IMG/VR virus record: IMGVR_UViG_3300009314_000008
Location: 1-64,000 of that record
DNA: 64,000 bases
Strand: one strand, 5' to 3'
Source of the DNA: a virus
The translations under genes and the position numbers were made by a program. This document shows, piece after piece, positions 44,552 to 62,659 of the stretch. Each line of letters starts with the position of its first letter. Position 1 is the first letter of the stretch. The notes under the pieces are model-generated. The model was not told the DNA's origin. It did not search any database and was given only the letters and a program-made list of their open reading frames with translations.

Positions 44552-44572
44552 TATATCTCCTTGTTTAAAGGG

Positions 44573-45139: not shown

Positions 45140-45157
45140 TTTTTATCTCCTTTTATA

Positions 45158-45514
45158 TTACTTCTTTTTGAGGATATTATATCCACCATAACCAGCACCA
45201 GCCAACCCAAGCCCACCTGTTCCTATTGCAATTGCTTGAGCTTTGCGCCCTCGTCTGCCAGTAACTATATCGCGCAATTTATTAGTCGTACTGGTGGTAT
45301 AAGTTGTCGCTTTATTGTAATGCTTGGCAGGGAATTTTTTAGCTTTGCCGTAAAAGGTTTTCATCCTGCCCATCAACCCTTTACCTTTACCAAGTATTGG
45401 CTTAAAATTGATTTTAAAAGCCTCTTTCTCCAATGATTCCGCTTGTTCAATATAGCCAAGGCTAATGAAATCATTTGCCAACATTTCTTCTGCTACTTTC
45501 TTAATTTCACCCAT
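45158..45514 (-). CDS. Small basic glycine-zipper protein, 118 aa
   Basis: Start at the internal ATG 45514 (MGEIKKVAEEML) which has AAAGGAGTAAAG, rather than 45553, which has none. The N-terminal helix, then a very basic middle (KAKKFPAKHYNKA), end in a hydrophobic glycine-rich segment (AIAIGTGGLGLAGAGYGGYN). Such a segment could insert in a membrane. Similar segments recur in the tagged proteins further along. Function unknown. Confidence 0.6.
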   Translation of the reverse strand: MGEIKKVAEEMLANDFISLGYIEQAESLEKEAFKINFKPILGKGKGLMGRMKTFYGKAKKFPAKHYNKATTYTTSTTNKLRDIVTGRRGRKAQAIAIGTGGLGLAGAGYGGYNILKKK

Positions 45515-47602: not shown

Positions 47603-47983
47603 TTATATTCGGGGCGCCCTATAATATTTTATTAATGAATTAACATACTTTTCAGCATCTCTCTGTAATACACTGGGGAATGCTTTTGCTTTTAAATCAT
47701 CAATTTCAGATAAAACTTTTGCTGCCCCCCCAGATAGTCCTCCTGCACCTACATGACGCATAGTCTTCATTAAAGATTTTGGTCCTATCAGCGAAGATAG
47801 TGCCCCTATCCCAGCCCCTAATAGAACAGCAGGCAATCGTCCCTGCTCAATATTATCAAAAGCATGAGTCTTGTAGTCTTTTATTGCCTGACTTTTGGTA
47901 TATTGTGGATTAGTTGATATTTCGTCTTCGATGTCTGCAATATCTTTGACTATTGCTTCTTTAATTATTAATGGACGTTTCAT
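47603..47983 (-). CDS. Tagged glycine-rich membrane-type protein, 126 aa
   Basis: Start at ATG 47983 (MKRPLIIKEAIVKD) with AAAGGAGAAA. The upstream reading from 48031 has no SD. The N-terminus is a variant of the shared leader (Cys replaced by Arg). Residues about 50-90 hold two short glycine-rich hydrophobic stretches (VLLGAGIGALSSLIG, GAGGLSGGAAKVL). First of a run of small tagged genes. Confidence 0.65.
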   Translation of the reverse strand: MKRPLIIKEAIVKDIADIEDEISTNPQYTKSQAIKDYKTHAFDNIEQGRLPAVLLGAGIGALSSLIGPKSLMKTMRHVGAGGLSGGAAKVLSEIDDLKAKAFPSVLQRDAEKYVNSLIKYYRAPRI

Positions 47984-48027
47984 TATTTCTCCTTTAATTT
48001 GCTCTTTCCATAACTTCGTATAATTGG

Positions 48028-48123
48028 TCAATGATATCTTTCTTCTCTTTTGATCTTTGCAACAAATAGAGGTTGTAATATAGTGCTGATCACCGCCTCT
48101 TTAACTACAATGGGACATCTCAC
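48028..48123 (-). CDS. Tagged micro-protein, 31 aa
   Basis: The GTG start is preceded by AGGAAATAGAA. The product is V/MRCPIVVKEAVISTILQPLF then VAKIKREERYH. The first ten residues are the shared leader and little else follows. It may be a real leader-only peptide or the stump of a lost cargo gene. The gene overlaps upstream sequence of the 126-aa gene only by a few bases. Confidence 0.45.
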   Translation of the reverse strand: MRCPIVVKEAVISTILQPLFVAKIKREERYH

Positions 48124-48135
48124 TATTTCTATTTC

Positions 48136-48615
48136 CTATGTATCTCTCATATAGTATTTATAGTTTTTAGGATTTTTCTTTATCCCCGGTCTTTGATAAT
48201 GTCTCCTGAAATTTTCTATATCAGTTTTTTTATCAGCATATGCTCGCATTCTCTCCATTCTCCTTTTATTTGGAGTAAATGCTGCACCTAATCCTATTCC
48301 ACTTAATAGCGACGATCCCAATATAATAGGTAATTTGTATTTTCCTTTTATTTTTGACCCGGACATAAGACTACTAGATATTGTGCCACCCAGTCCTCCT
48401 CCTAATATCCCTCCAGCGACCTGCCTATTTTTTTTGTATACTTTAGGCAGATTCCTATATCTATTTATCCTTTTGTTCCTCAATTCATCAGATAATTCCA
48501 GATATTTATCGCTTGTTATTTCTTTTGCTTTTGTTGGGGTATACCCTCTATACTCACCTTTGTTGGATACTCTCATCAATGTAATGGCTTCTTTTACTAT
48601 TCTTGGACATTTCAT
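48136..48615 (-). CDS. Tagged glycine-zipper protein, 159 aa
   Basis: MKCPRIVKEA leader, SD AAAGGAGAAT. Two glycine-rich hydrophobic segments (VAGGILGGGLGGTISSSLM at about 67-85, and IILGSSLLSGIGLGAAFTP at about 96-114) separated by a basic loop suggest a hairpin membrane insertion. The C-terminus is basic. A 15-codon ORF with GGAGAAT SD (48635-48682) lies just upstream. I do not call it as a gene. The glycine-zipper hairpin and leader recur in the protein at 58059. Confidence 0.7.
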   Translation of the reverse strand: MKCPRIVKEAITLMRVSNKGEYRGYTPTKAKEITSDKYLELSDELRNKRINRYRNLPKVYKKNRQVAGGILGGGLGGTISSSLMSGSKIKGKYKLPIILGSSLLSGIGLGAAFTPNKRRMERMRAYADKKTDIENFRRHYQRPGIKKNPKNYKYYMRDT

Positions 48616-48695
48616 TTTATTCTCCTTTATTTTTTCAATCCAGTATATCGTCTTGGATCGTATATTCCTTATATTTAATCATATATTCTCCAAAA

Positions 48696-48827
48696 TTATT
48701 TTTTGACTGATCCTAAACCGTGTTGGATAAGAACATTGTTATTCATTGATTTTCTAACAGTCCTTTCCTGATGTGGCTGTAAGACGGTTTTAGTTGCTGC
48801 CATTTTTACAGATGCAGGACATTTCGT
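48696..48827 (-). pseudogene. Tagged small protein with ACG in place of ATG start, 43 codons
   Basis: The context before and after the expected start is identical in form to the neighbours: AAGACGAAATGTCC here and AAGATGAAATGTCC in the next gene. The reading frame gives TKCPASVKMA, then 33 residues to a TAA. It keeps the SD-like AGGAAAAA but has no ATG. Either an ACG start is used or it is a decayed copy. Ribosome profiling could distinguish the two. Confidence 0.45.
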
Positions 48828-48869
48828 CTTATTTTTCCTCTCGTTTTATATGCCTAATCATCTTAAAAC

Positions 48870-49139
48870 TTAACTAGATTTATCTTTTTTTAATGTTTGT
48901 GCTCGTCTCCAACCTGACATATATCCAAGATGATAACCTATTGAACCAGGTATCGTTAGTAGCCCAGCGTAATTTTTAAATTTCAGTCGTTCCGGATTTT
49001 CTTTTCTGCTGATAGCTCCTTCCCTAAATCCCTTTTTCTTACCTTCTCCATGACCTATCAAAGAAGGTGTTCCAAATAACGACAGATCGATGGCAGGACC
49101 TACGAGAACGGCCATTTTAACTATTTGTGGACATTTCAT
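48870..49139 (-). CDS. Tagged protein, 89 aa
   Basis: MKCPQIVKMA leader with SD AAAGGAGAAATAAG. The body has Gly-rich and hydrophobic segments (VGPAIDLSLFGTPSLIG and LLTIPGSIGYHLGYMSG) and a basic C-terminus. In the run of tagged genes. Function unknown. Confidence 0.65.
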   Translation of the reverse strand: MKCPQIVKMAVLVGPAIDLSLFGTPSLIGHGEGKKKGFREGAISRKENPERLKFKNYAGLLTIPGSIGYHLGYMSGWRRAQTLKKDKSS

Positions 49140-49153
49140 CTTATTTCTCCTTT

Positions 49154-49645
49154 CTAAACTCCAGACACAACGTAGGGCTTACCAACTAAGGGTTGTTTAC
49201 CTAACACTATGTGTGCAGGATATTTTTTATTCTTAATTATATTATGTTTTATCTTTATACCTTTTGGTTTTATTGCTTTTAACTTCTTGTAGCCAAACCT
49301 TCCTCCAACTCCGATTGCAGCACCACCTATAGTTCCTTTGACAACATTTCCACCGCTTATGCCCGATGATATTCCACCGACAGATCCACCAACAATACCT
49401 GCTTTTGTATATGGATTTTTCCATATATGTTTAGCGATGGGTTTAAATGCTTTTAATGCGGCAACTATTCCCGCTTCCTTCAGTACTATTGGGCATGCCA
49501 ACTTAATCCCATTATCGGTTTTTCTCTTAGTTATTGCTGGTGCATATCTTGCCCGGGAATTAGTTATTGTTGGCGTTTTCATCACAACAGATTGTCCGGC
49601 CTTTAATGCTTTACTATACAATAGACCCTTATCATAATTTATCAT
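49154..49645 (-). CDS. Protein with internal tag and glycine-zipper segment, about 163 aa
   Basis: The leader-like sequence IKLACPIVLKEAG is internal, at about residues 47-59, after a 45-residue basic region. It is followed by a large Gly/Ser/Val hydrophobic stretch (AGIVGGSVGGISSGISGGN and IGGAAIGVGG) and a basic tail. Two close ATGs exist (49654 and 49645). I prefer 49645 for its better spacing from AGGATGG. The internal tag shows that the motif can mark a junction as well as a start. Confidence 0.6.
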   Translation of the reverse strand: MINYDKGLLYSKALKAGQSVVMKTPTITNSRARYAPAITKRKTDNGIKLACPIVLKEAGIVAALKAFKPIAKHIWKNPYTKAGIVGGSVGGISSGISGGNVVKGTIGGAAIGVGGRFGYKKLKAIKPKGIKIKHNIIKNKKYPAHIVLGKQPLVGKPYVVSGV

Positions 49646-49647
49646 AT

Positions 49648-50346
49648 TTACCATCCTATTAGTTTATATTTAAACATCAGTCCAACCGTTGTTGTATTCC
49701 CCTTTAATCCAATTCCATATCTTTCATCAAAGATGATATCTATGCCTACAAAACCATCTAATCTCTGTTTATTATTATTAACTTCTGGATTATAATCATA
49801 TTGGGTCTCCCCTACGAAGAATATCTGTCCTTTATCAACGGTTTTAATATATTTTCTTTCCCAATTGAGCCTCACATTTTTTATCTGATATCTCAATTTA
49901 TCAAAGATATACATTACTCCATCTTTATCTAGATTTACATCAATATCTATCCACTCATGAATATCAAATTGCAGAGTATCCCCTTCGGCTGTAAAGAGTT
50001 TTCGCACTTTTATTGCATTATCGCCACTATAATCTAATGTGTGGGAAGCAGCATTAGCCACCATGAGAGTATCATAAATAGTTTCTCCATCTTCTGTGAC
50101 AATAATTGATATTGTATCCTTGATAATCTTGGGATTAGTAAATAGCGAATCTGCTATCGATTTCCAATTATTCGCCTGATGAGTAACCGCACTTATACTC
50201 TCCGTCAAGGAATCCACCTTGCTATCCATAAACACAAGGTCTTCCTCTTGCCTAACGATTGTATCGTTTACACCATTTCGATAGGCAAAGTGATAAATGC
50301 TGCCAGTTAGCACTACTATAATAAGCACGATTATCTTAACATCCAT
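49648..50346 (-). CDS. N-terminally anchored protein with coiled coil, 232 aa
   Basis: Residues about 3-21 are a transmembrane helix (VKIIVLIIVVLTGSIYHFAY). Residues 30-70 form a coiled coil (VDSLTESISAVTHQANNW). The rest is beta-rich, ending GIGLKGNTTTVGLMFKYKLI as in an outer-membrane-style strand pattern. An N-terminal anchor plus periplasmic coiled coil suits a spanin-like or envelope-spanning protein, but no proof is visible. It sits alone between tagged proteins, with a good sigma-70-type promoter just upstream. Confidence 0.5.
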   Translation of the reverse strand: MDVKIIVLIIVVLTGSIYHFAYRNGVNDTIVRQEEDLVFMDSKVDSLTESISAVTHQANNWKSIADSLFTNPKIIKDTISIIVTEDGETIYDTLMVANAASHTLDYSGDNAIKVRKLFTAEGDTLQFDIHEWIDIDVNLDKDGVMYIFDKLRYQIKNVRLNWERKYIKTVDKGQIFFVGETQYDYNPEVNNNKQRLDGFVGIDIIFDERYGIGLKGNTTTVGLMFKYKLIGW

Positions 50347-50393
50347 TACTTCTCCTTTCTTTTTTGAGCCATCCTCCGGAAGACTTTCGCCAA

Positions 50394-50421
50394 ATTATAG
50401 CGCCTTGTCTTTGGTGGTCAA
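50394..50421 (-). promoter_or_regulatory. Sigma-70-type promoter
   Basis: TTGACC (50416-50421) and TATAAT (50394-50399) on the minus strand with 16 bases between. It overlaps the stop codon of the J-domain gene and would drive the 232-aa gene and the tagged genes beyond it. It is one of the few good host-type promoters in the window. Confidence 0.55.
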
Positions 50422-51299
50422 GTAGGTCCACCAAAGTTTGCTCCAGAACACACACCTTCCGTACCTCGACTTTTAATGGATTTATTTGCTGATTGTATCC
50501 ACCTTTTGGTTGCTTCCTTTAATACCCATGGACATAAAGCCTTCTTTTCTATAAGTAAATGCATAGATTTGCCCCGCGCCATCTTCAATATATTGGGATA
50601 CGCTAATTTCTTAAACCAATCCGTTTTTGACACATCATCAAATGCTCTATTGATTGTTTTAGCAATTTCCTCATTGCCTCCTTTGTCGGGATGCACTTTC
50701 CTCATCGTTGCCCAATAAGCTTGTTTTACCTGACTTTTTGAGTTAACTCCTTTCATCTTTAATCCGAAAGTACTTAAATTCTTTTTTATGGTAGCCTTTG
50801 GAATGTTCGGCGACCCTGAGTATTGTTGATATGCACGCCTGAAACCATCATATGATGCGCCCCGCAATTTTGCGTGATTGTACGGGATAAAAGATCCTGC
50901 CAACATCCCTAATCGTATACCCACACCCACAGATTTTTTCAGTTCATTTTTATTTCGTCGTGTTCTATTAGAATAAAATTGTTTAAATGTCGCTGATGGA
51001 TTCTTTTTTTTATACCTTCCCCATTGGTTTTTAAGAGTACCAGCATATGATAGCCCACCCCCTACTGCGCTACCTCCTCCTATTCTAATGGCCATTTGCC
51101 TCATAACCTCACTTTGTAGTGAAGCCTTTTTTGGAAGCCCCTTTCTCTTAGTTTTAGCAAATTCCCTGATTTTTTCTTTGGGCATTTTCTCGTATATCTG
51201 CCTAGCCGGACCATGTAATGCAGAGACTGGTATTTCGCCCTTTTTGGCTGCATAGACAAGTCCCATTAATTTTTGTTGGTTCTGACTGACACTGGGCAC
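50418..51299 (-). CDS. J-domain protein with two C-terminal tags, about 293 aa
   Basis: The GTG at 51299 with AGGAGAATAAC is preferred. The upstream ATG at 51314 is also in frame. Near residues 190-225 is a J-domain: KSQVKQAYWATMRKVHPDKG (HPD motif, Gly) followed by KTINRAFDDVSKTDWFKKLA. Directly after it come two leader-like blocks: YPNILKMA and CPWVLKEA. A glycine-rich helical region lies near residues 75-90 (GGGSAVGGGLSYAG). J-domains stimulate Hsp70/DnaK. A phage virion-cluster protein with one is unusual. A similar J-domain gene lies at 60457. Confidence 0.75.
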   Translation of the reverse strand: MPSVSQNQQKLMGLVYAAKKGEIPVSALHGPARQIYEKMPKEKIREFAKTKRKGLPKKASLQSEVMRQMAIRIGGGSAVGGGLSYAGTLKNQWGRYKKKNPSATFKQFYSNRTRRNKNELKKSVGVGIRLGMLAGSFIPYNHAKLRGASYDGFRRAYQQYSGSPNIPKATIKKNLSTFGLKMKGVNSKSQVKQAYWATMRKVHPDKGGNEEIAKTINRAFDDVSKTDWFKKLAYPNILKMARGKSMHLLIEKKALCPWVLKEATKRWIQSANKSIKSRGTEGVCSGANFGGPT

Positions 51300-51300
51300 G

Positions 51301-52017
51301 TTATTCTCCTGCATAGAATAATGGATTTATTCCAGCTTCAACTAATACTGTTATTTTACCCGGATTAGACGCACCGCTGACTACTTGTATTTCAATGTCT
51401 GATTTACTCTCAACTATTATTGGTTCTTCTAAATCTATTTCTGCCACTCCATTCAGGAGGGACACAGATAATTCCCGTTTAAATACTTTCCCAAAAGGTC
51501 TTACATTCAAAGACATAAGCGAACTCCCATCATCTGCACCCGCTTCTGACAGAATAATCTTTTTAATGAAGATCCTTTTCTTATTGGGCACTGTATAGAG
51601 AGCCATCTCACTCTTATTTTTTCCGGTTTCTATCATACCTCTAATGTTGTTATCATTAGGTATTCCGCCTGTCGGAGCAGATTCGGTACCGATATATATG
51701 TCGCCAGCATTATTGGTGTCTCCTATATTCTCTATACTAAACACCCTTCTCCAAGAATTATCTTCTCCAATTTTTACCCCGGTTTGCCCCGAAGATGTAA
51801 CCTCTACCTCTTGATAAACATAATTAGCATCTACCCCTGTCACTTTATAATCCTGATCATCTCCGTTATCAGAGCTGGACAAATATAATGTTTCTGATAC
51901 AGAACCATAAATATATTCCATATTATGTGGCCAAACAAGTTGATTTACATCTGTTGTCAGATTCCCAGCATATCCTTTTATTTTTATAGGTTTCATACCC
52001 GCGAATACTTTGCTCAT
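51301..52017 (-). CDS. Virion structural protein, 238 aa
   Basis: It lies directly after the portal gene. Beta-rich with segments common in phage virion proteins: SWRRVFSIENIGDTNNAGDI, YIGTESAPTGGIPNDNNIRG, NKSEMALYTVPNKKRIFIKK and LMSLNVRPFGKVFKRELSVS. I have seen this pattern in head or surface proteins but cannot name the family with certainty. Likely decorates the virion. Confidence 0.55.
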   Translation of the reverse strand: MSKVFAGMKPIKIKGYAGNLTTDVNQLVWPHNMEYIYGSVSETLYLSSSDNGDDQDYKVTGVDANYVYQEVEVTSSGQTGVKIGEDNSWRRVFSIENIGDTNNAGDIYIGTESAPTGGIPNDNNIRGMIETGKNKSEMALYTVPNKKRIFIKKIILSEAGADDGSSLMSLNVRPFGKVFKRELSVSLLNGVAEIDLEEPIIVESKSDIEIQVVSGASNPGKITVLVEAGINPLFYAGE

Positions 52018-52026
52018 TTTTTCTCC

Positions 52027-54795
52027 TTACTTATCTAAATCCATATTTGCTATTATTTTTTTATATAATGTGGGATTTATGTATCGAAGTTGCTTTAGCA
52101 TTTCTACCCTGTCGGTTTCATTATAACTTTCCTGAATCTGTAGAGCCATCTCCTTGGCAACATCGTCTTCCCCCGTTTTAATCAAGGTGTTGTCCTTTTC
52201 AATTTTCATGAATTGATCTAGATTGTCGGATATCATCTGCTTAAACTCATCGGGGAACTTTTGAACTTCCTTTACAAACTTGCCGAATTCTGGTGTTCCT
52301 TCGAGTTTAATCATCCTGGATGCATAGGCCGCGGCTTGTTGCTTAATGAACATTCGGCTTTCCAGTTCGGTTTCTACATCTTTGGCGATATCTGGACGGT
52401 GAGCCTCAATCTCCTCAACTATATCAGATATTTCATTGTCGTCTGCATTGGCTAATCTATCTGCATAGCCCATTGTGGCCATAGCATCCGCAGTTTCTTT
52501 AACTTTAGCGAACCTCTCCGAAGATTCCTGCATTAATTGCTGTTTAAAATATTCTCTCTCGTCCTGATTTAATCTATTATAGGTTGTAGCAGACAAATTT
52601 ATACTCTGATCTTCTGCTCTTTCTTCGTCCATTCTTTTAATACGTTCTTTCTGCAAGTTTGGATCCATTGTGACCGTTTTCTCTATTTGTTCTTCATCCT
52701 TTTTCTTCTTATATATATTTTCCAGTTGCTTATTGCGTTCTTCTTCGCTTAATTGGGACAATTCCTGTTTAGTCTGGGGATCAAGATTGTCGTTAATGGC
52801 CGACATTTCCTGTTCTATAGCAATTTCTTGAAGACATTTCTTTCTGTCATCGTACTTCATGCCGATCAATTCCAGTTGTTTAGTTTTTGGCAATTTTTTA
52901 TAAATCTCCATCAATTGACGGTATTCTTCGGCCATCTGTCTCTTATAATTAACCTCATCTCCCTTGAGTCCCATGGCTTCCATCTGATTCAATTCCAATT
53001 TCATTGATCGTTTTGCATCTCTATACTGCTGATCAGATTGTATTTTGAGACTTTCCTTCATATGTTCTAAAGAACCATCCATCTCATTAATCCGCCGTTT
53101 ATTCTGAACATCCAATTGATAATCCAACAACTTTTTCTTGGATGCAATATCCATTTTCATCAATTTCTTATGTTTATCAATAGCGGCCTCCATTTTATCG
53201 GATTCAATGGCGGCTATAGATAACTGATCTTTCAGGGCTTCTCGACGTTCAGTTTCTTTTATTTTCTTCTGTCCAGATAACAATACTTCTTGGAATTCAA
53301 CTTCACCCTGGGCTTCGAGGCGTTTCTGCATTTTTTTGAAATAGATTCTATCCTGTTTAGTGGCTTCTATTTTTGATCTTTGTGCTCGGAGATCAACACC
53401 AAACCGACTATAATATAATTCCGGAGATATATCTCCGTTCACCATACCCTTTTCGAGAAAAGTTGACTCCGCAAGGGCCTCGACCAACCTGGGCATTTCC
53501 AAAGTCAATTCGACCTTATCTTTTACATTCTGCGATGAGTTTATTTTCTCGGCTATAAAATCTAATAATTCCTGGACTAACATTCCGAATTGTTTAAATG
53601 TATTTTCGAGAATAATCGCTGATACATTTTGTCGTGACCATGTTACTCCACCGAATATAAACTCAATAGGTACACCTATTGTGGCCAATATGTCCGACAT
53701 GTTCTCGCGCAATTCTCTTCCGAGCACGAGAAGTTTGCCGGCTCCCCAAAAGTCTTTACTGCCCATTTCAATAGGCATCACCATTACATGTTTATTATCT
53801 TTTTTCCATTTTTTATATTGTGAGAGAACGCTCTGTCGCCAAGTCAACGAATTAATAGTTTGAGTCCTTGGTAGATGACCTCCAGATTCACCTCTCCAAA
53901 TAGGATAAAGCATCCGGAACGGAACCATCAATTCTTCGGCAACATTAGCGTTTGCTTGGACATACTTCATTCTTGTATAGAGATCTTGGAATGCCATTAC
54001 CATGGGTGGAATTGGCATCCCTTGAATATTCATTGTCGGAGCCTCAAAGATAAATAGTTTGCTGGGATTGATGACTATCCTGCGATTTTTCAATGCCGCT
54101 CTTATATATATCTGAGGCGTTGTACAAAGAATATAATGATCACCCCTGCGTATCAGATTACGCATTTCTTTATCAATATATAATTTATATTGTTTTGTGT
54201 CAGTTATTTTATTATAAACTGCTTCAATATTGTTAGGTGACCATACTGCTATAGACATTCTTTTTAAATTTGAACTATCTTTTCTATCTCTCATCTTAAA
54301 GGATGCATTTTTCCCATAGGCAGAACACTTTTTGTTGCGGCATTTATATTGAATCGATCCTTCTCCCGAACTATCCCATTTATATTCTGGGTCTCCTGTA
54401 TGTGTGAGATCTTTTAACAAATACGTATCTCCACAACTTTCACACACAATAACCTTATCAATAGCATACATCGGAAAAACAGCACTTATCCCATATATAT
54501 CATAATCACGACATGTCTTCACTATTTTTTCTCTTAATTTAATCACCCTGATCATCTTTTTGGCTCTATCCTCAAGTTCTGGATTATTACTTCTGATTTT
54601 AATATCCTGGATGGCAAATCTTGCCTTCTTGAGTATAGCCGTCCCAATCGCTGTATGGGTAAAGAAAAACTCCGCATAGCGATAATAGGTCTTCGCTCTA
54701 ACGGGGACAACTATTCTGTCCATGTTCAGGTTGAACACCAAATTCTTGATTCTGCTTGTATTATAGCTGCCTTCAGTAACACTATCTAATGACAT
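52027..54795 (-). CDS. Portal protein with zinc-binding loop and long C-terminal coiled coil, 922 aa
   Basis: The portal of the head vertex. Landmarks: the N-terminal clip and wing region AEFFFTHTAIGTAILKKARF, LRRGDHYIL-type strand (RRGDHYILCTTPQIYIRAAL), and the crown-to-stem region VNSLTWRQSVLS..., FIFGGVTWSRQNVSAIILEN with the helix FKQFGMLVQELLDFIAEKI. Four cysteines at 118, 121, 152 and 157 (CESC and CRNKKC) form a probable zinc knuckle in the N-terminal domain, uncommon in portals. The last about 400 residues are a long charged coiled coil, so the protein is much longer than the usual 450-550. The extension may hold packaged DNA or internal proteins. Confidence 0.75.
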   Translation of the reverse strand: MSLDSVTEGSYNTSRIKNLVFNLNMDRIVVPVRAKTYYRYAEFFFTHTAIGTAILKKARFAIQDIKIRSNNPELEDRAKKMIRVIKLREKIVKTCRDYDIYGISAVFPMYAIDKVIVCESCGDTYLLKDLTHTGDPEYKWDSSGEGSIQYKCRNKKCSAYGKNASFKMRDRKDSSNLKRMSIAVWSPNNIEAVYNKITDTKQYKLYIDKEMRNLIRRGDHYILCTTPQIYIRAALKNRRIVINPSKLFIFEAPTMNIQGMPIPPMVMAFQDLYTRMKYVQANANVAEELMVPFRMLYPIWRGESGGHLPRTQTINSLTWRQSVLSQYKKWKKDNKHVMVMPIEMGSKDFWGAGKLLVLGRELRENMSDILATIGVPIEFIFGGVTWSRQNVSAIILENTFKQFGMLVQELLDFIAEKINSSQNVKDKVELTLEMPRLVEALAESTFLEKGMVNGDISPELYYSRFGVDLRAQRSKIEATKQDRIYFKKMQKRLEAQGEVEFQEVLLSGQKKIKETERREALKDQLSIAAIESDKMEAAIDKHKKLMKMDIASKKKLLDYQLDVQNKRRINEMDGSLEHMKESLKIQSDQQYRDAKRSMKLELNQMEAMGLKGDEVNYKRQMAEEYRQLMEIYKKLPKTKQLELIGMKYDDRKKCLQEIAIEQEMSAINDNLDPQTKQELSQLSEEERNKQLENIYKKKKDEEQIEKTVTMDPNLQKERIKRMDEERAEDQSINLSATTYNRLNQDEREYFKQQLMQESSERFAKVKETADAMATMGYADRLANADDNEISDIVEEIEAHRPDIAKDVETELESRMFIKQQAAAYASRMIKLEGTPEFGKFVKEVQKFPDEFKQMISDNLDQFMKIEKDNTLIKTGEDDVAKEMALQIQESYNETDRVEMLKQLRYINPTLYKKIIANMDLDK

Positions 54796-54852
54796 TACCT
54801 ATCTCACCTTGCTTTTGCCGCCGAAAATATCATCCGCTTTCTTTAATATCCT

Positions 54853-56199
54853 TTACTTTTTACGCTTTTCATTAATATAGATTGCCAGATCAGATTTGAA
54901 GTCATGTTCTTTGTCCATCTTATCTTGATCTTCTACCACTTTTGCTCCAGCTAACATTCCAGTTTGAACCGCTTTGCTAATAGACTCTGAATTCAATGGA
55001 GGGGTATAATTTTTACCCGCAGATATCATCTGGTTAATATTTCCAGAATCCATTGTGCCGGTTATGTGGTGCTTTTTCAGTGTCTGCGCGAGGGCGTATG
55101 GGGCTGTAACCAATACTGGATTCAAATTAGTTACAGTCTCATAGATGTCATGATACTCAGATGGAGGTATTTCCTGCAGTCCGGGGAATCGATTAGGAAG
55201 CGATTTCTCCAATTTCCTAGTTCGGATTTTCTTTGTCACATCATTGATGATATCAACGCCTTTGGTTGCAGCTATTTGGGCACCAACTATTGCGGCCAAG
55301 TATGCTAATGGCTTTTCCTGGAAAAATATTTTCGCGGCAGTGTTGACTCCTGCATATTTTTCTAACCCTTCTTGCAATACGCTGGCTATAATAAATTCAT
55401 GCTGGAGATACTTATCAATCATGGCTGCCCTTTTCTCGCCACCCTCTTTCTGCAACATATTCATCATATTTAGATGGGCGATCTCTCGCTTGATAATCTC
55501 ATCGCTATATCTTAAAACTTCATGAGCAGACTTCGCCAGTTCATTATCCGTTAATTCAACGGGGTCAGTATTGGTATAATCTGGAACATTGAAATCCACT
55601 TGATCAATATAGCCTTCGGTCTTTAAATCGTCTAATAATCCAGTAAAATACTTTTTCAGTTCCTCTTCATTATTCTTGCCCCAAGACTCATATAGCGTTC
55701 TGTAAATATCATTAGCAGATTCTCCTGCCTGCAACAGGGCAATAATGGTGTTCTTTATATGGGCAAATATATTATCTCTTTTATTTACAAGAGACAATAA
55801 GTCGTCAGCATTCTCCTCGGCAGCATCAGCTATTTTCACAATATTATGGATTGGATTTATTTTAGGGCTTGGCTCATTGGCTACACTACCCAGCAGTTCG
55901 GATGCCGTTTTCATCCTTTTACCCTCAATCACTTTTGCCTTTTTCTCTACTAATGGTCCAAGTTGAGTATAGTCTGCCTTTTCAAACTTAAATGTCAGTG
56001 TCCCATTTCTATCTTTTTCTCTGGCGAATTTAATATGGTTCATCCGGGCCCCTACATTTTCTGCCTGGACGGGATTTAACCCATAATCAATCGCTACTTT
56101 TCGGAGAGCATCAGTTAGGGAAATCTGATTATCCTCAGCAACATCTACCCCTGCTTTAGCCACTCGCTCAACAAAATGTATATTGTTTCCCGGGTTCAC
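54853..56199 (-). CDS. Head-associated protein between terminase and portal genes, 448 aa
   Basis: The GTG start is preceded by AGGGGGAGAC. Mostly helical with a hydrophobic helix LAAIVGAQIAATKGVDIIND (about residues 301-320). Position between terminase and portal is often held by head-completion or portal-associated proteins. A C-terminal block (LVTAPYALAQTLKKHHITGT) looks domain-like but I cannot name it. There is no leader tag. Confidence 0.5.
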   Translation of the reverse strand: MNPGNNIHFVERVAKAGVDVAEDNQISLTDALRKVAIDYGLNPVQAENVGARMNHIKFAREKDRNGTLTFKFEKADYTQLGPLVEKKAKVIEGKRMKTASELLGSVANEPSPKINPIHNIVKIADAAEENADDLLSLVNKRDNIFAHIKNTIIALLQAGESANDIYRTLYESWGKNNEEELKKYFTGLLDDLKTEGYIDQVDFNVPDYTNTDPVELTDNELAKSAHEVLRYSDEIIKREIAHLNMMNMLQKEGGEKRAAMIDKYLQHEFIIASVLQEGLEKYAGVNTAAKIFFQEKPLAYLAAIVGAQIAATKGVDIINDVTKKIRTRKLEKSLPNRFPGLQEIPPSEYHDIYETVTNLNPVLVTAPYALAQTLKKHHITGTMDSGNINQMISAGKNYTPPLNSESISKAVQTGMLAGAKVVEDQDKMDKEHDFKSDLAIYINEKRKK

Positions 56200-56210
56200 G
56201 TCTCCCCCTC

Positions 56211-56369
56211 TTATTTTTTGTTTTCTTCGGCTTCAGTGGTTTCTTGTTCTTTTTTTGCTTCTTCTTTCAAGATGGGGATAATTTGATTAATCTCACCCTT
56301 AGCTATCTTTTCTATCGCATCATCATATCCTTTTTTTACAATTACTTCCATGAAAATATCTTCTTTCAT
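56211..56369 (-). CDS. Small acidic protein, 52 aa
   Basis: MKEDIFMEVIVKKG, SD GGAGGAAAG. The product is helical with a C-terminal Lys/Glu/Ala-rich tail. It lies between the terminase and the 448-aa gene. A small terminase partner would need DNA-binding features that I do not see. Function unknown. Confidence 0.55.
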   Translation of the reverse strand: MKEDIFMEVIVKKGYDDAIEKIAKGEINQIIPILKEEAKKEQETTEAEENKK

Positions 56370-56417
56370 TCTTTCCTCCATTATTTAATCTTTACTTTTA
56401 ATTGACCATTGTTTTTT

Positions 56418-56423
56418 TGTCAA
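56418..56423 (-). promoter_or_regulatory. TTGACA box after terminase
   Basis: TTGACAAAAAAACAATGGTC on the minus strand in the gap downstream of the terminase gene, upstream of the small acidic gene. TAAAAG at 17 bases is a weak -10. Confidence 0.35.
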
Positions 56424-56424
56424 T

Positions 56425-58044
56425 TTATTTTTTTACTCTATATTCTAATTCGTCAAAATGGTATTTCTTCACTAATCTCAATATAACCAAATTCTGGAAA
56501 AAGTCATCTGTGCCTGACTTCCCATATCTGATTTTTCTTTTTCCAGTATCGTGATATCGATAGACGTTTGTCAAGTCTTTTGCATATTCTGAGGTCTCCC
56601 CAGGATATTTTGCAAATTTGTATTCACCTTTTCTCACAATATCGTCTATTAATCCAGTCATTACCGTTGATCTCGCCATTACCCATTTCTCGAATTCTGG
56701 ATAATATGCCACCTTCTCAGCCAACTCTCCTACATATTCAAATTCCATCGTCCTCTTAAAACCAAGTATTTCTATTATCCGGATATTTTCTTTGTGCCCA
56801 GCACCATAATCCATTCCGAGAATCAATACATTAAAGTGGTTTACCCAATAGACAACATCGTTAATTATATCATCTGGAGATCCATCTTCTCCCTTTCCAT
56901 AATATCTTCTGACGAAATTTATATTAATCTTGCGCGACCCAGGATCGTATGATCCTATCGTGAGCATGGTATAGGACTTTATTTTCGACAATTTTTTCCG
57001 CGGGTCATCTTCTACAGCCCAATCCAATGCCGCAAAAGAATACTCCTTCATTTTTTTAGTAATTTCAGAAGGATCTTTTACGTATTCCCTATCGCTATCG
57101 CATAAATATACTACCCTCTGCAATGTTATAGGATGTATATTGTCTGAAAATGATAACCCTAGAACTTCATTATGGAAATCAACCTCATCTTTTTTATTAT
57201 AATCGTATAAAATTGTATCCCAATCTGAAGCAAAGGGTGCTTCGGGGGGGATCATCAACTCGTTAATTGAAAATCCCTCGAAAGGTCTTCCGGGATGCGC
57301 CTCTACCCATTCTCCCCACCATGTGCTAATTCTCTTATGACATTTTTCGCAGATAATACCCTTAAGACCCATATTCTTTATGCCAAGCCCGACATTCCAA
57401 TGGCCGCATGCCCTACATTTAATCGCCCATTCACATCCTGTTGAATCATCGAATGTCGTTTGGATTCTATTCTCCGGTTGCATCGGCGTTCCCGTCTTAA
57501 GCATATATTTATATTTAGACCTTTTCAGCGCAAACTCAACAATACTAGCGTGCTGTTCAGGAGTATCTTGCATCTCGTCCTCAATATAGCAATCACCGAT
57601 AATTCCCCGAGCAGATAGTGGCGACACATAAATATTAGCTAAGAGTATTCTTGAGCCGGTCAAGTAGGATTTGTTTTTTACTTGTCTTTCGTTTAAACGA
57701 GGGTCGTAATAAATAACATCCGTGACCACAGAATCCCGGTTAATCCCCTTCAGAATGTCTGTTGAAAACCGACTCACCTGGGCATCGGTAGGTAAGGTTA
57801 TAATAGTATTAAAATATTTATGTTCAATCGCGAATCCGGTAGCAAGAATTGCGGCATTTGTTGATTTGGCTACTTTACGCGAACATTTTAGAATCACCCG
57901 GCGTTGAACTTGAGGAGATTCAAGGGTAAATCGAGAAGTATTAATTATAGGTATCCAAAAGGGTAAATATTTGAAAGAGAGGGCATCTCCATCAAGTTTA
58001 AACCATGCTTGGTATAAATCGCTCCGAGTTATTGCTTTATTCAT
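56425..58044 (-). CDS. terL: Terminase large subunit, 539 aa
   Basis: ATPase/nuclease that packages DNA. The N-terminal ATPase has a Walker A-type loop CSRKVAKST (54-62) and Walker B YIEDEMQ (153-159). The nuclease domain has acidic residues at FAALDWAVEDD (Asp341) and LGMDYGAGHKEN (Asp412). Between them is a CxxC-x18-CxxC zinc knuckle (210, 213, 232, 235; CRACGHWN and CEKCHKR). The length is usual for TerL. The zinc knuckle is seen in gpA-type terminases. Located in the head-gene region. No small subunit gene is recognised nearby. Confidence 0.85.
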   Translation of the reverse strand: MNKAITRSDLYQAWFKLDGDALSFKYLPFWIPIINTSRFTLESPQVQRRVILKCSRKVAKSTNAAILATGFAIEHKYFNTIITLPTDAQVSRFSTDILKGINRDSVVTDVIYYDPRLNERQVKNKSYLTGSRILLANIYVSPLSARGIIGDCYIEDEMQDTPEQHASIVEFALKRSKYKYMLKTGTPMQPENRIQTTFDDSTGCEWAIKCRACGHWNVGLGIKNMGLKGIICEKCHKRISTWWGEWVEAHPGRPFEGFSINELMIPPEAPFASDWDTILYDYNKKDEVDFHNEVLGLSFSDNIHPITLQRVVYLCDSDREYVKDPSEITKKMKEYSFAALDWAVEDDPRKKLSKIKSYTMLTIGSYDPGSRKININFVRRYYGKGEDGSPDDIINDVVYWVNHFNVLILGMDYGAGHKENIRIIEILGFKRTMEFEYVGELAEKVAYYPEFEKWVMARSTVMTGLIDDIVRKGEYKFAKYPGETSEYAKDLTNVYRYHDTGKRKIRYGKSGTDDFFQNLVILRLVKKYHFDELEYRVKK

Positions 58045-58058
58045 TAAATATTTCTTAC

Positions 58059-58310
58059 TTACGGTTGTTTAATCCATTTCCCCATTCTCTTATAATCTGC
58101 ATAACCGCCAGCTCCTGCACCTAACAAACTTCCTCCCATAAATGCACCTATTGTAGACAAAGGATTGTATTTTTTTTGTTTACCTTTTTTAATCCTTTTA
58201 TTTTGGGATGAGCTATTTAGCATAGATGCTCCTATACCACCACCCAACATACCAATACCCGTCCTTAATCCCGGTACATAGGCTTCCTTAATTATCTCTG
58301 GACATTTCAT
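58059..58310 (-). CDS. Tagged glycine-zipper membrane protein, 83 aa
   Basis: MKCPEIIKEA leader, which also fits the I-x-E cut site. Two Gly-rich hydrophobic helices (LRTGIGMLGGGIGASMLN and LSTIGAFMGGSLLGAGAGGY) flank a basic loop (KRIKKGKQKKY), matching the hairpin of the 159-aa gene at 48136. Starts in ATGA overlap with the next gene upstream. Confidence 0.7.
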   Translation of the reverse strand: MKCPEIIKEAYVPGLRTGIGMLGGGIGASMLNSSSQNKRIKKGKQKKYNPLSTIGAFMGGSLLGAGAGGYADYKRMGKWIKQP

Positions 58311-58600
58311 TTCATTCTCCTCTTTATTATAGATATCAAATCGCTTGCATCTCTTTTTAATTTCTTAACCATCTTTATCTGCCTAGCCTTTTCAAATTTC
58401 TTTGCCTGTCTCATGTAGTTAACCTGATAAGGGATTGCCTTGACTTGTAGTTTTATTGATCTGACAGGGTAGTATCTTCTATATTTAGAAAGGTCGTTAA
58501 TAAAATTATGAGAGAATATTGCTTTAGTCATTGCTTTGGTAGACGCTCTCCCTAACAATGTTGAAGTTAAGGCTTCTTTAATTATCCCTGGACATCTCAC
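58307..58600 (-). CDS. Tagged basic protein, 97 aa
   Basis: MRCPGIIKEA leader. It is followed by a very basic helical body (KKFEKARQIKMVKKLKRDAS) with no hydrophobic segment. It could bind nucleic acid or act as a charged packaged protein. It overlaps the kinase-like gene start and the next gene by ATGA. Confidence 0.65.
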   Translation of the reverse strand: MRCPGIIKEALTSTLLGRASTKAMTKAIFSHNFINDLSKYRRYYPVRSIKLQVKAIPYQVNYMRQAKKFEKARQIKMVKKLKRDASDLISIIKRRMK

Positions 58601-60444
58601 AACAAATCCTCCCCATAAATTTTTAACTTTTTATATAGTATTTTCTTTATCTTTGGCATATTTAATGGAATCTTATCTTTCATTTTATTTAATGTCTTCA
58701 ATCCAAAAGCACTTGCTTCCGCTTCTGATAAATACTCGTTCATAGCAGTAGGCTTCTTCCAATATTTCTGGTTATATGTTTGTTTCTTAAGAATATCCAA
58801 TAATCCTTTTTTGCTCTTCACAGCATGCCCCAGTTCGTGAGACAACACTGCTGCCGGCTCATTTTTTCTTGGAAGCATAGAGACGATCTTCCTGACAGCA
58901 ACATTTTTCACTTTAGGAATAGATATAGATAAATCATTTCCTCTACCTTTGAGAAATTGCCCGCCACGCAGCAATCTAATATAATCTCTTACCCCAATAT
59001 CTGAGTTGACTCCCCCATATTCTATATTGAGCATTCTCTTAAGAGTGGGATTGATCTTTTTAAGTGGGATGAAATGCCTCTCTATAGGAATCTTGTGCGC
59101 CTTTATTTCTCGAAGTAAAGGTCTTAATTTAAGTATAGACCTTAGGGAAGACTTTTTTTGTAAAATGCTGGGGCAATTCATTGTTTTTCCCACTTTAAAA
59201 AGTTTTTGTTTATTTAGAGGACTTCCGGTTCTACCCTTCATAGTCCATTCCTTGAATTGCTCTACGGTCATCGCCGTGATCGGTCCACATTTCCATCCCT
59301 TCTCATAATTAGCGAGATATGTTTTTCTAGCCTCATCTTCAGTGAGTGCCCCGAGGATACACTTGTGTTCATCGAATTTACCGTTCTTGTCTACTTGATC
59401 AATTACATACACTATCTGACTTTCTGGATGACTTCCTATGAACACATCAATTTTGTCCCCATCTTTCCCATCCTGTGCATTAGAGATGTATCCATAATCA
59501 TATTTCATCTTTATTGACCACGATTTACCATCTGGGTCAGTTCCGGATCTCGTTGATCCCTTTGGGTTCTCCAATTTAATAGTCAGTCCATTCCACTTGA
59601 ATGACCCTTTTTTGTAGTTCTCGGCTTTTATTTGGGCATCTGATGGGTTAATGTTGGTATCTTTTCGAGCCCTATTTATATCTCCGGTCATTGTTGCTAT
59701 TTTAATATTATTGGGCATTCTGTCATTTAACGCCTCCCTCATTGCTCTGTATGAATCTTTTTTAATGTTACGTTTCATGTCCAAGTTTGTAGGGAATGCC
59801 TTATAGTTAGTAATATCAAAGTCTATTAAAGTGTTTCCTATTGTGTTTTGAGCGGTAGTATCTCTAAGATGAGGAAACCTTTTTTTAATATTCTTATAGT
59901 CCGACTTGTTTATTATATTTGCATTAATTATTTTATGAACTTTTTCTCTTGCCTTGTTTATAGAAATTATTCTTTTTTGCCATCTAATTTTTTCTGCTAC
60001 TGTCCCCTCTCTTGGATACTCATTAGGGACCATATTTTTTTTTATTATTGCCGCTTTATCAGAAATTTTTCTCCCCTTAATGTATTCATAATATCCAATC
60101 CCTTTATTTCTCTTTACCATTTTCGCTACAGGAATACCCTTTTTGTGCATTAACTTCCTCGCTTTATTCCATACCTTATGCTCCATTGCCTGAGCTTTAT
60201 ATATTCCTATAATATCGCTTGCAGATTTTCTGTCTATTAAAGGTATTTTTCTAACAGCTTTTCCAATACCTTCTGTGAATACGAGGTCGGCGATCCTGAA
60301 AGCTCCTCTACCTAATGGCTTTATCGTCCTGTCTTTATACCCAGCTTCCGCCAGTCTTTTAAGCGACTCTCTTCCTAATTTCCCAGACCTCACCATCTTA
60401 ACCCATCTTGGAGAAGCTCTCTTCAGTATTACAGGACAATTCAT
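58597..60444 (-). CDS. Multidomain tagged protein: kinase-like, pyrophosphatase-like and zinc metallopeptidase, 615 aa
   Basis: Leader MNCPVILKRA, then a protein-kinase-like fold (about 36-250): glycine-rich loop LGRGAFRIADLVF, GKAVRKIP (Lys), EHKVWNKA (alphaC Glu), hinge YYEYIKGR and NTLIDFDI (DFD in place of DFG). I see no HRD-type catalytic loop. Next, residues about 258-410 match the phage inorganic pyrophosphatase-like domain: NINPSDAQIKAENYKKG, LENPKGSTRSGTD, GYISNAQDGKDGDKIDVFIG, DEHKCILGALTEDEA. A second tag MNCPSILQKK (422-431) begins a third module with HELGH (536-540) and a downstream YLSEAEASAFG Glu, a zinc metallopeptidase. The internal tag marks the junction of cargo modules. 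Confidence 0.75.
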   Translation of the reverse strand: MNCPVILKRASPRWVKMVRSGKLGRESLKRLAEAGYKDRTIKPLGRGAFRIADLVFTEGIGKAVRKIPLIDRKSASDIIGIYKAQAMEHKVWNKARKLMHKKGIPVAKMVKRNKGIGYYEYIKGRKISDKAAIIKKNMVPNEYPREGTVAEKIRWQKRIISINKAREKVHKIINANIINKSDYKNIKKRFPHLRDTTAQNTIGNTLIDFDITNYKAFPTNLDMKRNIKKDSYRAMREALNDRMPNNIKIATMTGDINRARKDTNINPSDAQIKAENYKKGSFKWNGLTIKLENPKGSTRSGTDPDGKSWSIKMKYDYGYISNAQDGKDGDKIDVFIGSHPESQIVYVIDQVDKNGKFDEHKCILGALTEDEARKTYLANYEKGWKCGPITAMTVEQFKEWTMKGRTGSPLNKQKLFKVGKTMNCPSILQKKSSLRSILKLRPLLREIKAHKIPIERHFIPLKKINPTLKRMLNIEYGGVNSDIGVRDYIRLLRGGQFLKGRGNDLSISIPKVKNVAVRKIVSMLPRKNEPAAVLSHELGHAVKSKKGLLDILKKQTYNQKYWKKPTAMNEYLSEAEASAFGLKTLNKMKDKIPLNMPKIKKILYKKLKIYGEDLL

Positions 60445-60456
60445 TTAATACCTCTT

Positions 60457-61341
60457 TTAGTGGCGTTTTTTAAAATATTCAGATGCTTCGGGGTTACTTT
60501 TATAGAGTTGGAACCTGTATTTCCTTCTTAGGTATTTCATACGTAACTCATCTAATTTTCTTGGAGACTTAAATACATACTTCCTTGTCTTCGGGCTCCT
60601 CATCATGCGAAATCTTCTCGTGAGCGGACCCCTAATAAGTGCATTAAATGCTTTTCCTGAAACATCCGCCGCATTCGTGACGAGTCGTCCCGACACCGCT
60701 GTTTTCGGTATATAAGGTGCTCTCTCATATGCAAGTTTACTGAACCACCCTGAGTTTTTAATGGATGTCCATGCTCCCACCACTTCTTTCATAATATCCT
60801 CCGAACCACCTTTATCAGGGTGGCTTTTCATTGCTGCTGCTCTAAAAATCTTTTTTACCTGAGCCTTAGTCTTTACTGACGATTTATTAATGTTTAGCGT
60901 TTTAATTGCTTTATCTAAATTTCCGCTCTTTACCGCGAACCCACCTAAGTTTTTAAAGTATTCATAATATTTTTTATTTAAATCTTCCCACATTGCCCGG
61001 TTCATCCTTCCTCTTATGTTTTCTGCTGCTCCATTAAGCCCTCTTCTTATGTTTTCTGCTGCTTCATTAAGCCCTCTCATTCTTCTTTTATGCCGATACA
61101 CCGATGGTCCTATTGCCATCCCCACAAGAGCTCCCCCAATAGCTGTCCCTATTGCGGCATCTTTAAGATCCTTACCGGATTTCGTCTTTATGTATTGCCC
61201 AAAAGATAATCTGTTTTTTCTCCCACCCCGCACATACTTATTGTAGTTTCGGTGTCCTTGCCATAAACTTGCCCCACCGAGCATTCCACCCAATGTGCCG
61301 CAGGTGGCAGTAGTTCCAGCTATTGTCTTAAATGCTCCCAT
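60457..61341 (-). CDS. J-domain protein with glycine-rich membrane segment, 294 aa
   Basis: The N-terminal 85 residues hold two Gly/Ala-rich hydrophobic stretches (TCGTLGGMLGGASLW and AAIGTAIGGALVGMAIGPS). A J-domain covers about 150-205: INKSSVKTKAQVKKIFRAAA, MKSHPDKGG (HPD 174-176), then EVVGAWTSIKNSGWFSKLA. The same end WF(S/K)KLA follows the J-domain in the protein at 50418. A tandem 11-residue repeat (RGLNEAAENIR) lies at about 89-110. The leader tag is absent. SD AAAGGAGAAA. Confidence 0.75.
   Translation of the reverse strand: MGAFKTIAGTTATCGTLGGMLGGASLWQGHRNYNKYVRGGRKNRLSFGQYIKTKSGKDLKDAAIGTAIGGALVGMAIGPSVYRHKRRMRGLNEAAENIRRGLNGAAENIRGRMNRAMWEDLNKKYYEYFKNLGGFAVKSGNLDKAIKTLNINKSSVKTKAQVKKIFRAAAMKSHPDKGGSEDIMKEVVGAWTSIKNSGWFSKLAYERAPYIPKTAVSGRLVTNAADVSGKAFNALIRGPLTRRFRMMRSPKTRKYVFKSPRKLDELRMKYLRRKYRFQLYKSNPEASEYFKKRH
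61013..61078. repeat. 33-bp tandem repeat, two copies
   Basis: Two adjacent 33-bp copies differ at one or two positions. They encode the repeated peptide RGLNxAAENIR in the J-domain gene. Confidence 0.8.
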
Positions 61342-61429
61342 TATTTCTCCTTTTTCAATCTCTTTAAATCAACAGGCGGTAGATTGATACCACCGCCCAC
61401 CTACTGAAGGGGAAGGGTTCCTCAGTATT

Positions 61430-61552
61430 CTATTTAACAAACACCCATTCGATTACAACAGTGCCTGAACAGTTTAGATCACCATCTGGATGCCAATGCC
61501 ATAACCCTCTATCTTCAACATCGGCAATTTTCAATATTTTAGGACATTTCAT
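61430..61552 (-). CDS. Tagged micro-gene/remnant in frame with the gene upstream, 40 aa
   Basis: MKCPKILKIA leader, then DVEDRGLWHWHPDGDLNCSG and TVVIEWVFVK. The last block resembles the C-terminus (TVVIEWVLLKE) of the protein at 62915. The frame is open back to the stop of the gene at 61592: CAT ATT AAT GAA CAA AAA..., reading INEQKLFKVGEQ before the Met. The same segment LNKQKLFKVGKT precedes the internal tag of the 615-aa protein. It is therefore the leftover of a deleted fusion, possibly still translated (a weak GGCG SD). Confidence 0.55.
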   Translation of the reverse strand: MKCPKILKIADVEDRGLWHWHPDGDLNCSGTVVIEWVFVK

Positions 61553-61591
61553 TTGTTCGCCTACTTTAAATAATTTTTGTTCATTAATATG

Positions 61592-62659
61592 TTATCTTAT
61601 CTTCCTGATAATTCCTGAAATAAATTTTCTCGCCTTTATGGGCACTTTTTTATAGTTTTCTGCCTTAATCTGTGCTTCTGACGGATTAGCATTAGTTGCT
61701 TTGCGAGCACTGGCAATATCTGATAACATCCCGGAGAATTTTATCATAGCATTTTTTTTGATTTGATTCACTCCATTTTTATCTTTATTTTTTGCTTCTC
61801 TAATTCCAGCGGCAACCAAAGCCCCTCCTAATATAACGGAGGGTATTATTTTATTTTTGTTTCTGCTGAAATATCCAGGAAACGTTTTCTTATAGTTTTC
61901 AGTCGTACGCATTCCATTAGCAAACGCTTTATAAGTATCACGATAATGCTTGGATGGTCCTCTATCCATTGTATAAGTTTGGGGTCCTAGAATATCAAAG
62001 TCTACTAGCGTTCTATCAACAAGATTTCTATTCGTCATATCATATATTCTCGGATATTTTCTTTTTATTTTTCGCATGGTTTTAGCATCTATAGGTGATT
62101 TATTAAGAATCCTTAACATCCTTAATTTAGCATTCTTTACCCGAATTCTCCTAACTCTATCACCCTGCTTTCCATATTCGTCTAGTTTATTAAATAATTT
62201 TTTTGCTTTATTAGCAACGCTCCTACCTTTAACATGCTCATAATATCCTATTGGGCCATCTTGTTTTATCAATCGAGGAACCTTTATCTTCTTTTTTGAC
62301 AAATATTTTTGCACTTTATTCCATACAAAATGTTCCTTTGCTTGGCTATTATATGGCTCATGAATATAATATTTCGACACCCCCTCTATATTAGGTATTT
62401 TTCTAACAGCTTTACCCACCCTACTAGTAAATACCAAGTCAGAGACTCTTGTTCCTCCCACTCCAAGATGTTTTATTGTCCTATCTTTATATCCAGCATT
62501 TGCAAGAATTTTTAATGCCTTCTCACTTAATTTGCCTGACCTTATCATCTTGATCCATTTGGGAGACGAATACTTCTCTATTGCAGATATCTTAATTATT
62601 GTTGGAAGCATACTTATTCTCCTAATTCCCGATGTTTTTATGATACAAGGGCATTTCAT
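61592..62659 (-). CDS. Tagged kinase-like protein with truncated pyrophosphatase-like domain, 355 aa
   Basis: Two leader-like starts: MKCPCIIKTS (62659, SD GGGGGATC) and MLPTIIKISA (62611, with a better SD, TTAGGAGAATAAGT). The body matches the kinase-like half of the 615-aa protein: HLGVGGTRVSDLVFTSRVGK, RKIPNIEG, KEHFVWNKVQK, GYYEHVKGRS, NLVDRTLVDFDI. After residue 309 only ARKATNANPSEAQIKAENYKK remains of the pyrophosphatase-like domain. A glycine-rich helix sits near 275-290 (IPSVILGGALVAAGIRE). The stop is directly followed by in-frame coding of the tagged micro-gene. Confidence 0.75.
   Translation of the reverse strand: MKCPCIIKTSGIRRISMLPTIIKISAIEKYSSPKWIKMIRSGKLSEKALKILANAGYKDRTIKHLGVGGTRVSDLVFTSRVGKAVRKIPNIEGVSKYYIHEPYNSQAKEHFVWNKVQKYLSKKKIKVPRLIKQDGPIGYYEHVKGRSVANKAKKLFNKLDEYGKQGDRVRRIRVKNAKLRMLRILNKSPIDAKTMRKIKRKYPRIYDMTNRNLVDRTLVDFDILGPQTYTMDRGPSKHYRDTYKAFANGMRTTENYKKTFPGYFSRNKNKIIPSVILGGALVAAGIREAKNKDKNGVNQIKKNAMIKFSGMLSDIASARKATNANPSEAQIKAENYKKVPIKARKFISGIIRKIR

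Follow-up and report, generated by a model that had tools for sequence, protein, structure and literature searches.

Phage-carried proteins that are injected into the host are hard to read from sequence. In phage T4, three internal proteins are known through a common leader, and most phages offer no such handle. Within the ten-residue T4 leader, residues 4 and 7 target and residues 8 and 10 serve processing (PMC9026906). Phage P1 has an N-terminal capsid signal, that of DarB, which brings injected anti-restriction proteins into the head (PMC9024508), and the ejection proteins of SPN3US have A-x-E sites for the prohead protease, which prefers Ser at P1' (PMC10052503). The passages on polyvalent proteins in Iyer et al. 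2017 describe multidomain cargo combining an InPase with a zincin-like peptidase, for which packaging and injection are predicted (PMC5512222). Here we describe a ten-residue leader shared by proteins of a tailed phage with a bacterial host, found in bases 1-64000 (hereafter, the window) of the 78,445-bp virus record IMGVR_UViG_3300009314_000008. By analogy with T4, the leader is likely to be a capsid-targeting and maturation signal of T4-like function, whose sequence and cleavage code differ from those of T4.

The shared leader and its carriers

Leaders were collected by a six-frame search for P-x-h-h-K-x-[AS] (h, hydrophobic residue) and by translation of all open reading frames (ORFs), and were then re-read from the DNA. 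Ten ORFs in the window open with the leader, whose consensus is M-x-[CR]-P-x-[IV]-[IVL]-K-x-[AS] (Table 1); two of these ORFs are very short, at 31 and 40 amino acids (aa). There are also five internal copies, one of them degenerate, and an extra copy (IKCPSILKKS) lies outside the window at position 67069 of the parent record. Most leader starts are preceded by a Shine-Dalgarno-like sequence, which is weak at 48123, 61552 and 62659. Composition-preserving shuffles of the called proteins gave 0.002 start leaders per genome by chance, vs 8 in called genes.

With the leader removed, the carriers fall into mostly unrelated groups. The initial annotation had reported a shared leader on unrelated proteins; its leaders and internal copies were confirmed, including the one in the polymerase operon at 4037 (MECPSIIKVA), apart from the main region, and the claim of unrelatedness needs two exceptions, since 58597-60444 and 61592-62659 are paralogs and several Gly-rich hairpin proteins are weakly alike. 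The N-terminal domain common to the two paralogs (39% identity over about 320 aa) had no Pfam match and looks kinase-like by eye. The longer paralog has the polyvalent architecture, being a multidomain protein with an InPase domain (Pfam PF18823, E 1e-50) and a zincin-type metallopeptidase (PF14891, E 9e-5, below the family cut-off; HELGH motif at 58839-58825). A J-domain carrier, also claimed earlier, was found in 50418-51299, which has two internal copies and also a DUF3008 domain, and the second J-domain protein, 60457-61341, has no leader. Many carriers are membrane-hairpin-like. In the window the carriers are strongly basic (median isoelectric point 10.2 vs 6.7, p 3e-5), and this is likewise true in two related phages (G001, p 2e-4; G002, p 3e-4). 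Internal proteins that associate with DNA would be expected to have such a charge.

These two phages were the only records matched, several times each, when the back-translated leader pattern was searched in 2.9 million viral contigs of IMG/VR. A motif search of related phages had been suggested in the initial annotation. G001 (64 kb) has 8 copies and G002 (21 kb) 11, located in the head and packaging cluster and reading MKCPEIIKEA, MKTPEIIKEA, MRTPEIIKEA and similar. The terminase returned no relatives as a single-sequence query and, as an alignment query, only these two phages, which were already known. A looser leader pattern gave just two isolated single matches in GTDB genomes (257 Gb), so no host can be named.

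Counted over the three phages, the leader occurs 25 times at an N-terminus and about a dozen times internally. Pro4 and Lys8 are present in 25/25 N-terminal copies and Ala10 in 24/25 (once Ser), and the left half is also constrained (K/R at position 2 in 23/25, C/T/R at position 3 in 25/25). Six copies have Thr and one has Arg in place of Cys3, so the leader does not depend on cysteine chemistry. The wobble codons are free (Lys8 as AAA in 13 and AAG in 12, four codons for Ala10, three for Ile6). Orthologs at about 40% identity retain the leader, among them the G001 ortholog of 48870-49139, where it reads MKTPEMIKEA.

The prohead protease and the h-x-K-x-A motif

The protein encoded at 45602-47590 had no match of its own in Pfam or PHROGs. 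It was linked to a head maturation protease family through two homologs that match this family, gp222 of Salmonella phage Arash and a protein of Vibrio phage D181. An AlphaFold2 (AF2) model built from 37 sequences (predicted local distance difference test score 75.5) was closest to T4 gp21 (5jbl; Z 9.6, root-mean-square deviation 2.8 over 128 residues), followed by herpesvirus proteases (varicella-zoster virus, Z 7.7, others lower); Foldseek alone gave a weak match (E 0.18). The catalytic-type residues His100 and Ser151 are invariant in the 37 sequences. By its predicted fold, the protein is a T4 gp21-type prohead protease, as the initial annotation had proposed. Its gene adjoins that of the major capsid protein and four small genes between the two, which appear scaffold-like from the gene order.

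The right half of the leader, h6-x-K8-x-A10, is a motif of these head genes. In the window, h-x-K-x-A was observed 17-18 times in the head module vs 3.6-4.0 expected and 22 times in the leader (tag) region vs 9.8, and was at background in the tail (8 vs 8.3) and early (4 vs 3.6) genes. The D181 head orthologs contain 37 vs 4.6 expected (tail 9 vs 7.8, nonstructural 5 vs 9.1). The genes around the Arash protease contain 34 vs 4.4 (tail 16 vs 15.0, nonstructural 12 vs 15.1), a head set picked after the sites had been seen, so the D181 test and a pooled test carry the weight. For the latter, a scan with the protease alignment found 166 loci, of which 80 were kept and 39 non-redundant ones were used. 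When all gapped triplets were ranked across these 39 loci, h.K.A came first (1179 vs 347 expected, z 44.7), with K.A.A as the runner-up (z 23.5). In controls without a window-type protease (T4 and Bacillus phage Jayan), h.K.A was at background. Applied to T4 as a positive control, the triplet test placed h.E at rank 18/1611 (z 3.6), so it is sensitive, not sharp. Plain K.A was not enriched over all Arash structural proteins (rank 347); the Arash signal appears only with the hydrophobic residue included and in head genes.

The placement of the motif also points to the protease. The window protease has K-x-A at residues 28-30 (47509-47501) and 285-287 (46738-46730), on either side of its catalytic domain, and in the family alignment nearly all of 38 sequences have a K-x-A immediately ahead of the protease domain and 32/41 have one directly behind it, the arrangement that a self-processing enzyme would have. 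The window capsid protein has LIKEA at residues 8-12 (43144-43130), and nearly all capsid proteins of the protease family have K-x-A near residue 22-31, the one in Arash reading GLVKEA|GAA at the predicted cut. The residues flanking the motif favour Glu and Ala; directly after the Ala, Ser is enriched (116 vs 34) and Pro, Lys, Asp, Val and Leu are poor. Herpes assemblins cleave x-Ala|Ser. Since K-x-A|S matches the P3-x-P1 form of known prohead sites, the cut was placed after the Ala of K-x-A, by this analogy the most likely scissile bond.

The initial annotation had instead proposed (L/I)-x-E as the cut site. This candidate was dropped because leader position 9 varies (E in only 19/25 N-terminal copies) and the window head module shows no excess of (L/I)-x-E (22 vs 20.9 expected).

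The same half-site occurs with other leaders in other lineages, and the phenomenon is more general than the initial annotation stated. Among the proteins of the 39 other loci, those whose first 24 residues contain h-x-K-x-A are more basic than the remainder (p 1e-7) and have more GxxxG (p 4e-11). Nine basic proteins in four loci (L088, L098, L100 and L111) share the leader M(S)NKYLEKIA; these carriers are Gly-rich and several per locus, and their leader ends in the K-x-A site. AFxDELxKIA or GFxDELxKIA is repeated on unrelated proteins in seven loci (L047, L048, L065, L069, L108, L110 and L115). In the nearest other relative by portal (L124, 29%), an InPase homolog opens with MAIEFLQKIA and its neighbours with MTTVTILEKIA and MNTIECLQKIA (xxhL[EQ]KIA; L124:1915-6337), so that the processing half is retained and the left half differs from the CP leader of the window. 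Pfam and PHROGs searches of the carriers of other leader types returned a single InPase match, one weak match to a metallopeptidase and almost nothing else. A fixed K-x-A half with a left half that varies by lineage looks like a targeting handle plus a constant protease site.

The remaining features of the window are listed with the leaders in Table 1. The RNA polymerase beta/beta' pieces are divided among several genes, and the portal-like protein contains an insert resembling a zinc ribbon (CxxC...CxxxxC) as well as a C-terminal part that is charged and very long. By eye, the C-terminus of the 40-aa leader ORF (61430-61552) resembles that of the protein at 62915-63550 (GTVVIEWVxxK), which suggests a chimeric minigene. 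The latter protein is encoded near virion genes and has a Sec-type signal peptide.

Table 1 Leader copies and other features of the window
Feature	Coordinates	Strand	Details
Leader MECPSIIKVA	4037..4066	+	Start of 253-aa protein 4037-4798, within RNA polymerase beta/beta' operon
Leader MKRPLIIKEA	47954..47983	-	126-aa protein 47603-47983
Leader MRCPIVVKEA, GTG start	48094..48123	-	31-aa mini-ORF; weak ribosome-binding site
Leader MKCPRIVKEA	48586..48615	-	Gly-rich hairpin protein 48136-48615
Leader MKCPQIVKMA	49110..49139	-	89-aa protein 48870-49139
Internal copy LACPIVLKEA	49472..49501	-	In 49154-49645
Internal copy ALCPWVLKEA	50511..50540	-	In DUF3008/J-domain protein 50418-51299
Internal copy LAYPNILKMA	50577..50606	-	Immediately past J-domain of 50418-51299
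Leader MKCPEIIKEA	58281..58310	-	Gly-rich hairpin protein 58059-58310
Leader MRCPGIIKEA, GTG start	58571..58600	-	97-aa protein 58307-58600
Leader MNCPVILKRA	60444-60415	-	615-aa protein 58597-60444
Degenerate internal copy MNCPSILQKK	59181-59152	-	In 58597-60444
Leader MKCPKILKIA	61523..61552	-	40-aa ORF
Leader MKCPCIIKTS	62630..62659	-	61592-62659
Second, tandem copy SMLPTIIKIS	62585..62614	-	In 61592-62659
Polyvalent-type 615-aa protein	58597-60444	-	Leader, paralog domain, InPase, degenerate copy, HELGH metallopeptidase
Prohead protease (predicted)	45602..47590	-	T4 gp21/herpes assemblin fold
Four small head-module genes (43668, 44072, 44573, 45158)	43668..45514	-	Dense in h-x-K-x-A
Major capsid protein, HK97 fold	42158..43165	-	Foldseek E 1.9e-9 on AF2 model
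Terminase	56425-58044
Portal-like protein	52027-54795
Tail module	about 11-41 kb
Multi-subunit RNA polymerase beta/beta' pieces	803-9162	+	PHROGs matches

Proposed function and alternative readings

Five things were shown by computation and can be joined in a T4-like scheme: the leader, the motif, the association of the motif with both head genes and the protease family, the fold of the protease, and the basicity of the carriers. The right half, h6-x-K8-x-A10, would be the recognition site of the phage's gp21-type prohead protease. The left half, M-[KR]-[CT]-P-x, would be a lineage-specific handle that probably joins the cargo to the prohead scaffold core, a role suggested for the MKCP half by its conservation and by the T4 parallel. 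The cargo would consist of small basic proteins, often with Gly zippers or several domains (J-domain, DUF3008, InPase, metallopeptidase). At head maturation the protease would cut K-x-A and the leader would be removed, cuts at internal copies would split cargo domains apart, and the cargo would then exit with the DNA at infection. The T4-like leader reading of the initial annotation holds up in that the head-protein motif, the basic carriers and the polyvalent domains agree with it, and its cut site is corrected to K-x-A.

Several observations weigh against this scheme or limit its reach. Mycobacteriophage Bread, a distant protease relative, reached a z of 1.9 only, and the wider family is not uniform. 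In phage G, h.K.A is the top triplet in head genes (12 vs 3.7) and the capsid protein is without K-x-A, so not every phage of this larger family would cleave its capsid protein; the window protease has a distant homolog in gp19 of phage G (L152, Bacillus phage G 5000-40000). In Arash, N-terminal h-x-K-x-A is only weakly tied to a 'structural' annotation (9/59 vs 11/202, p 0.018). Within the window, the leader MKCPCIIKTS ends in S and the internal copy MNCPSILQKK is without K-x-A. The phage-protease literature searched, mostly non-subscription, yielded no paper on a prohead K-x-A site, that is, Lys at P3 with Ala at P1; K-x-A would be a predicted specificity for a protease family without a described site in that literature.

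Among the alternatives, there is a small chance that the leader is a protease site only, a pro-segment removed for maturation or activation, with the carriers entering the head through other contacts. This would fit the many head proteins that have the same h-x-K-x-A and lack the left half, and also the internal copies between domains. Its difficulty is that the left half is conserved too, at positions 2 to 4, beyond what the motif needs, and that every lineage has its own left half, like a targeting handle. The very high motif density in proteins adjoining the protease gene and the helix-like flanking preference for Glu and Ala could also be explained by an uncut docking or scaffold-binding helix, common to leader, scaffold and capsid through co-assembly. 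We regard this as improbable, because the motif brackets the protease catalytic domain at two fixed places and has the P1'-like Ser preference; the high density of protease sites in the core proteins of T4 has the same cause.

It is very unlikely that gene conversion, or the copying of start regions, has spread a leader without any common function, its conservation reflecting recent shared ancestry. Some copies do share upstream sequence (NKWSKRRSVMKTPE.., three times in G001), so copying does occur. However, synonymous codons vary at I6, K8 and A10 with the residues fixed, the leader is kept in orthologs as divergent as noted above, and changes from C3 to T3 leave the rest intact. We give the least credence, next to none, to a leader that targets elsewhere (membrane or host compartment) or is a translation start signal: the hairpin-like character of many carriers and the shared DNA ATGAAATG would suit it, but the leader lacks hydrophobic character, is also used internally, tolerates GTG starts and AGA, AAT or GAA as the second codon, and falls together with the motif of the head protease.

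The reach of such a signal may be wider. There is about an even chance that tailed phages of a large clade, most of them uncultivated, share a single cleavage code, h-x-K-x-A, and combine it with interchangeable leaders specific to each lineage (MKCPxIIKEA, MNKYLEKIA, AFxDELxKIA) as a plug-in address for loading many anti-host proteins into the head, where cuts at internal copies would split multidomain cargo into separate proteins after packaging. The leader gene 4037-4798 lies between RNA polymerase pieces, which raises the question of a virion-borne polymerase, and the cargo could possibly include a factor for it. A leader and protease code in hundreds of uncultivated phages, if true, would make injected proteins listable from sequence alone, and would provide a function-independent route to anti-defence cargo and another natural tag for phage-head loading.

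Comparison with described packaging systems

The closest parallel is the T4 capsid-targeting sequence (CTS) of IPI, IPII and IPIII (MKTYQEFIAE|A; IPII and IPIII open with MKTYQEFIAEA). It likewise comprises about ten N-terminal residues on unrelated basic proteins and ends in a prohead-protease site, and the T4 protease has the same fold as that predicted for the window protease. As in T4, a short N-terminal sequence is common to otherwise unrelated proteins of one phage and ends in a protease motif, recognized here by enrichment and placement. The window leader is conserved at positions 4 and 6, then 8 and 10, where T4 uses 4 and 7, then 8 and 10. The T4 consensus and cut site, MKTYQEFI-x-E and (L/I)-x-E, differ from those of the window, which has M-K-C/T-P-x-I-I-K-E-A and, as the predicted cut motif, K-x-A. 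Also unlike T4, the window phage has many more copies in a small genome and internal copies between domains, and J-domain, DUF3008 and InPase/peptidase multidomain proteins are among its carriers. Judged by sequence, the window leader would work like a CTS yet is outside the T4 CTS family. Packaging is proven for the T4 CTS and is predicted for the window leader.

The other systems share single aspects. The P3-x-P1 form of the motif is like that of SPN3US and phiKZ-type phages, and the Ser after Ala resembles their P1' Ser; those phages have long private propeptides and A-x-E, whereas the window has short shared leaders and K-x-A. For the P1 Dar proteins no common consensus was found, whereas the window leader is shared and repeated. 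The passages on polyvalent proteins in Iyer et al. describe no common N-terminal leader, whereas the window carrier 58597-60444 combines such an architecture with one.

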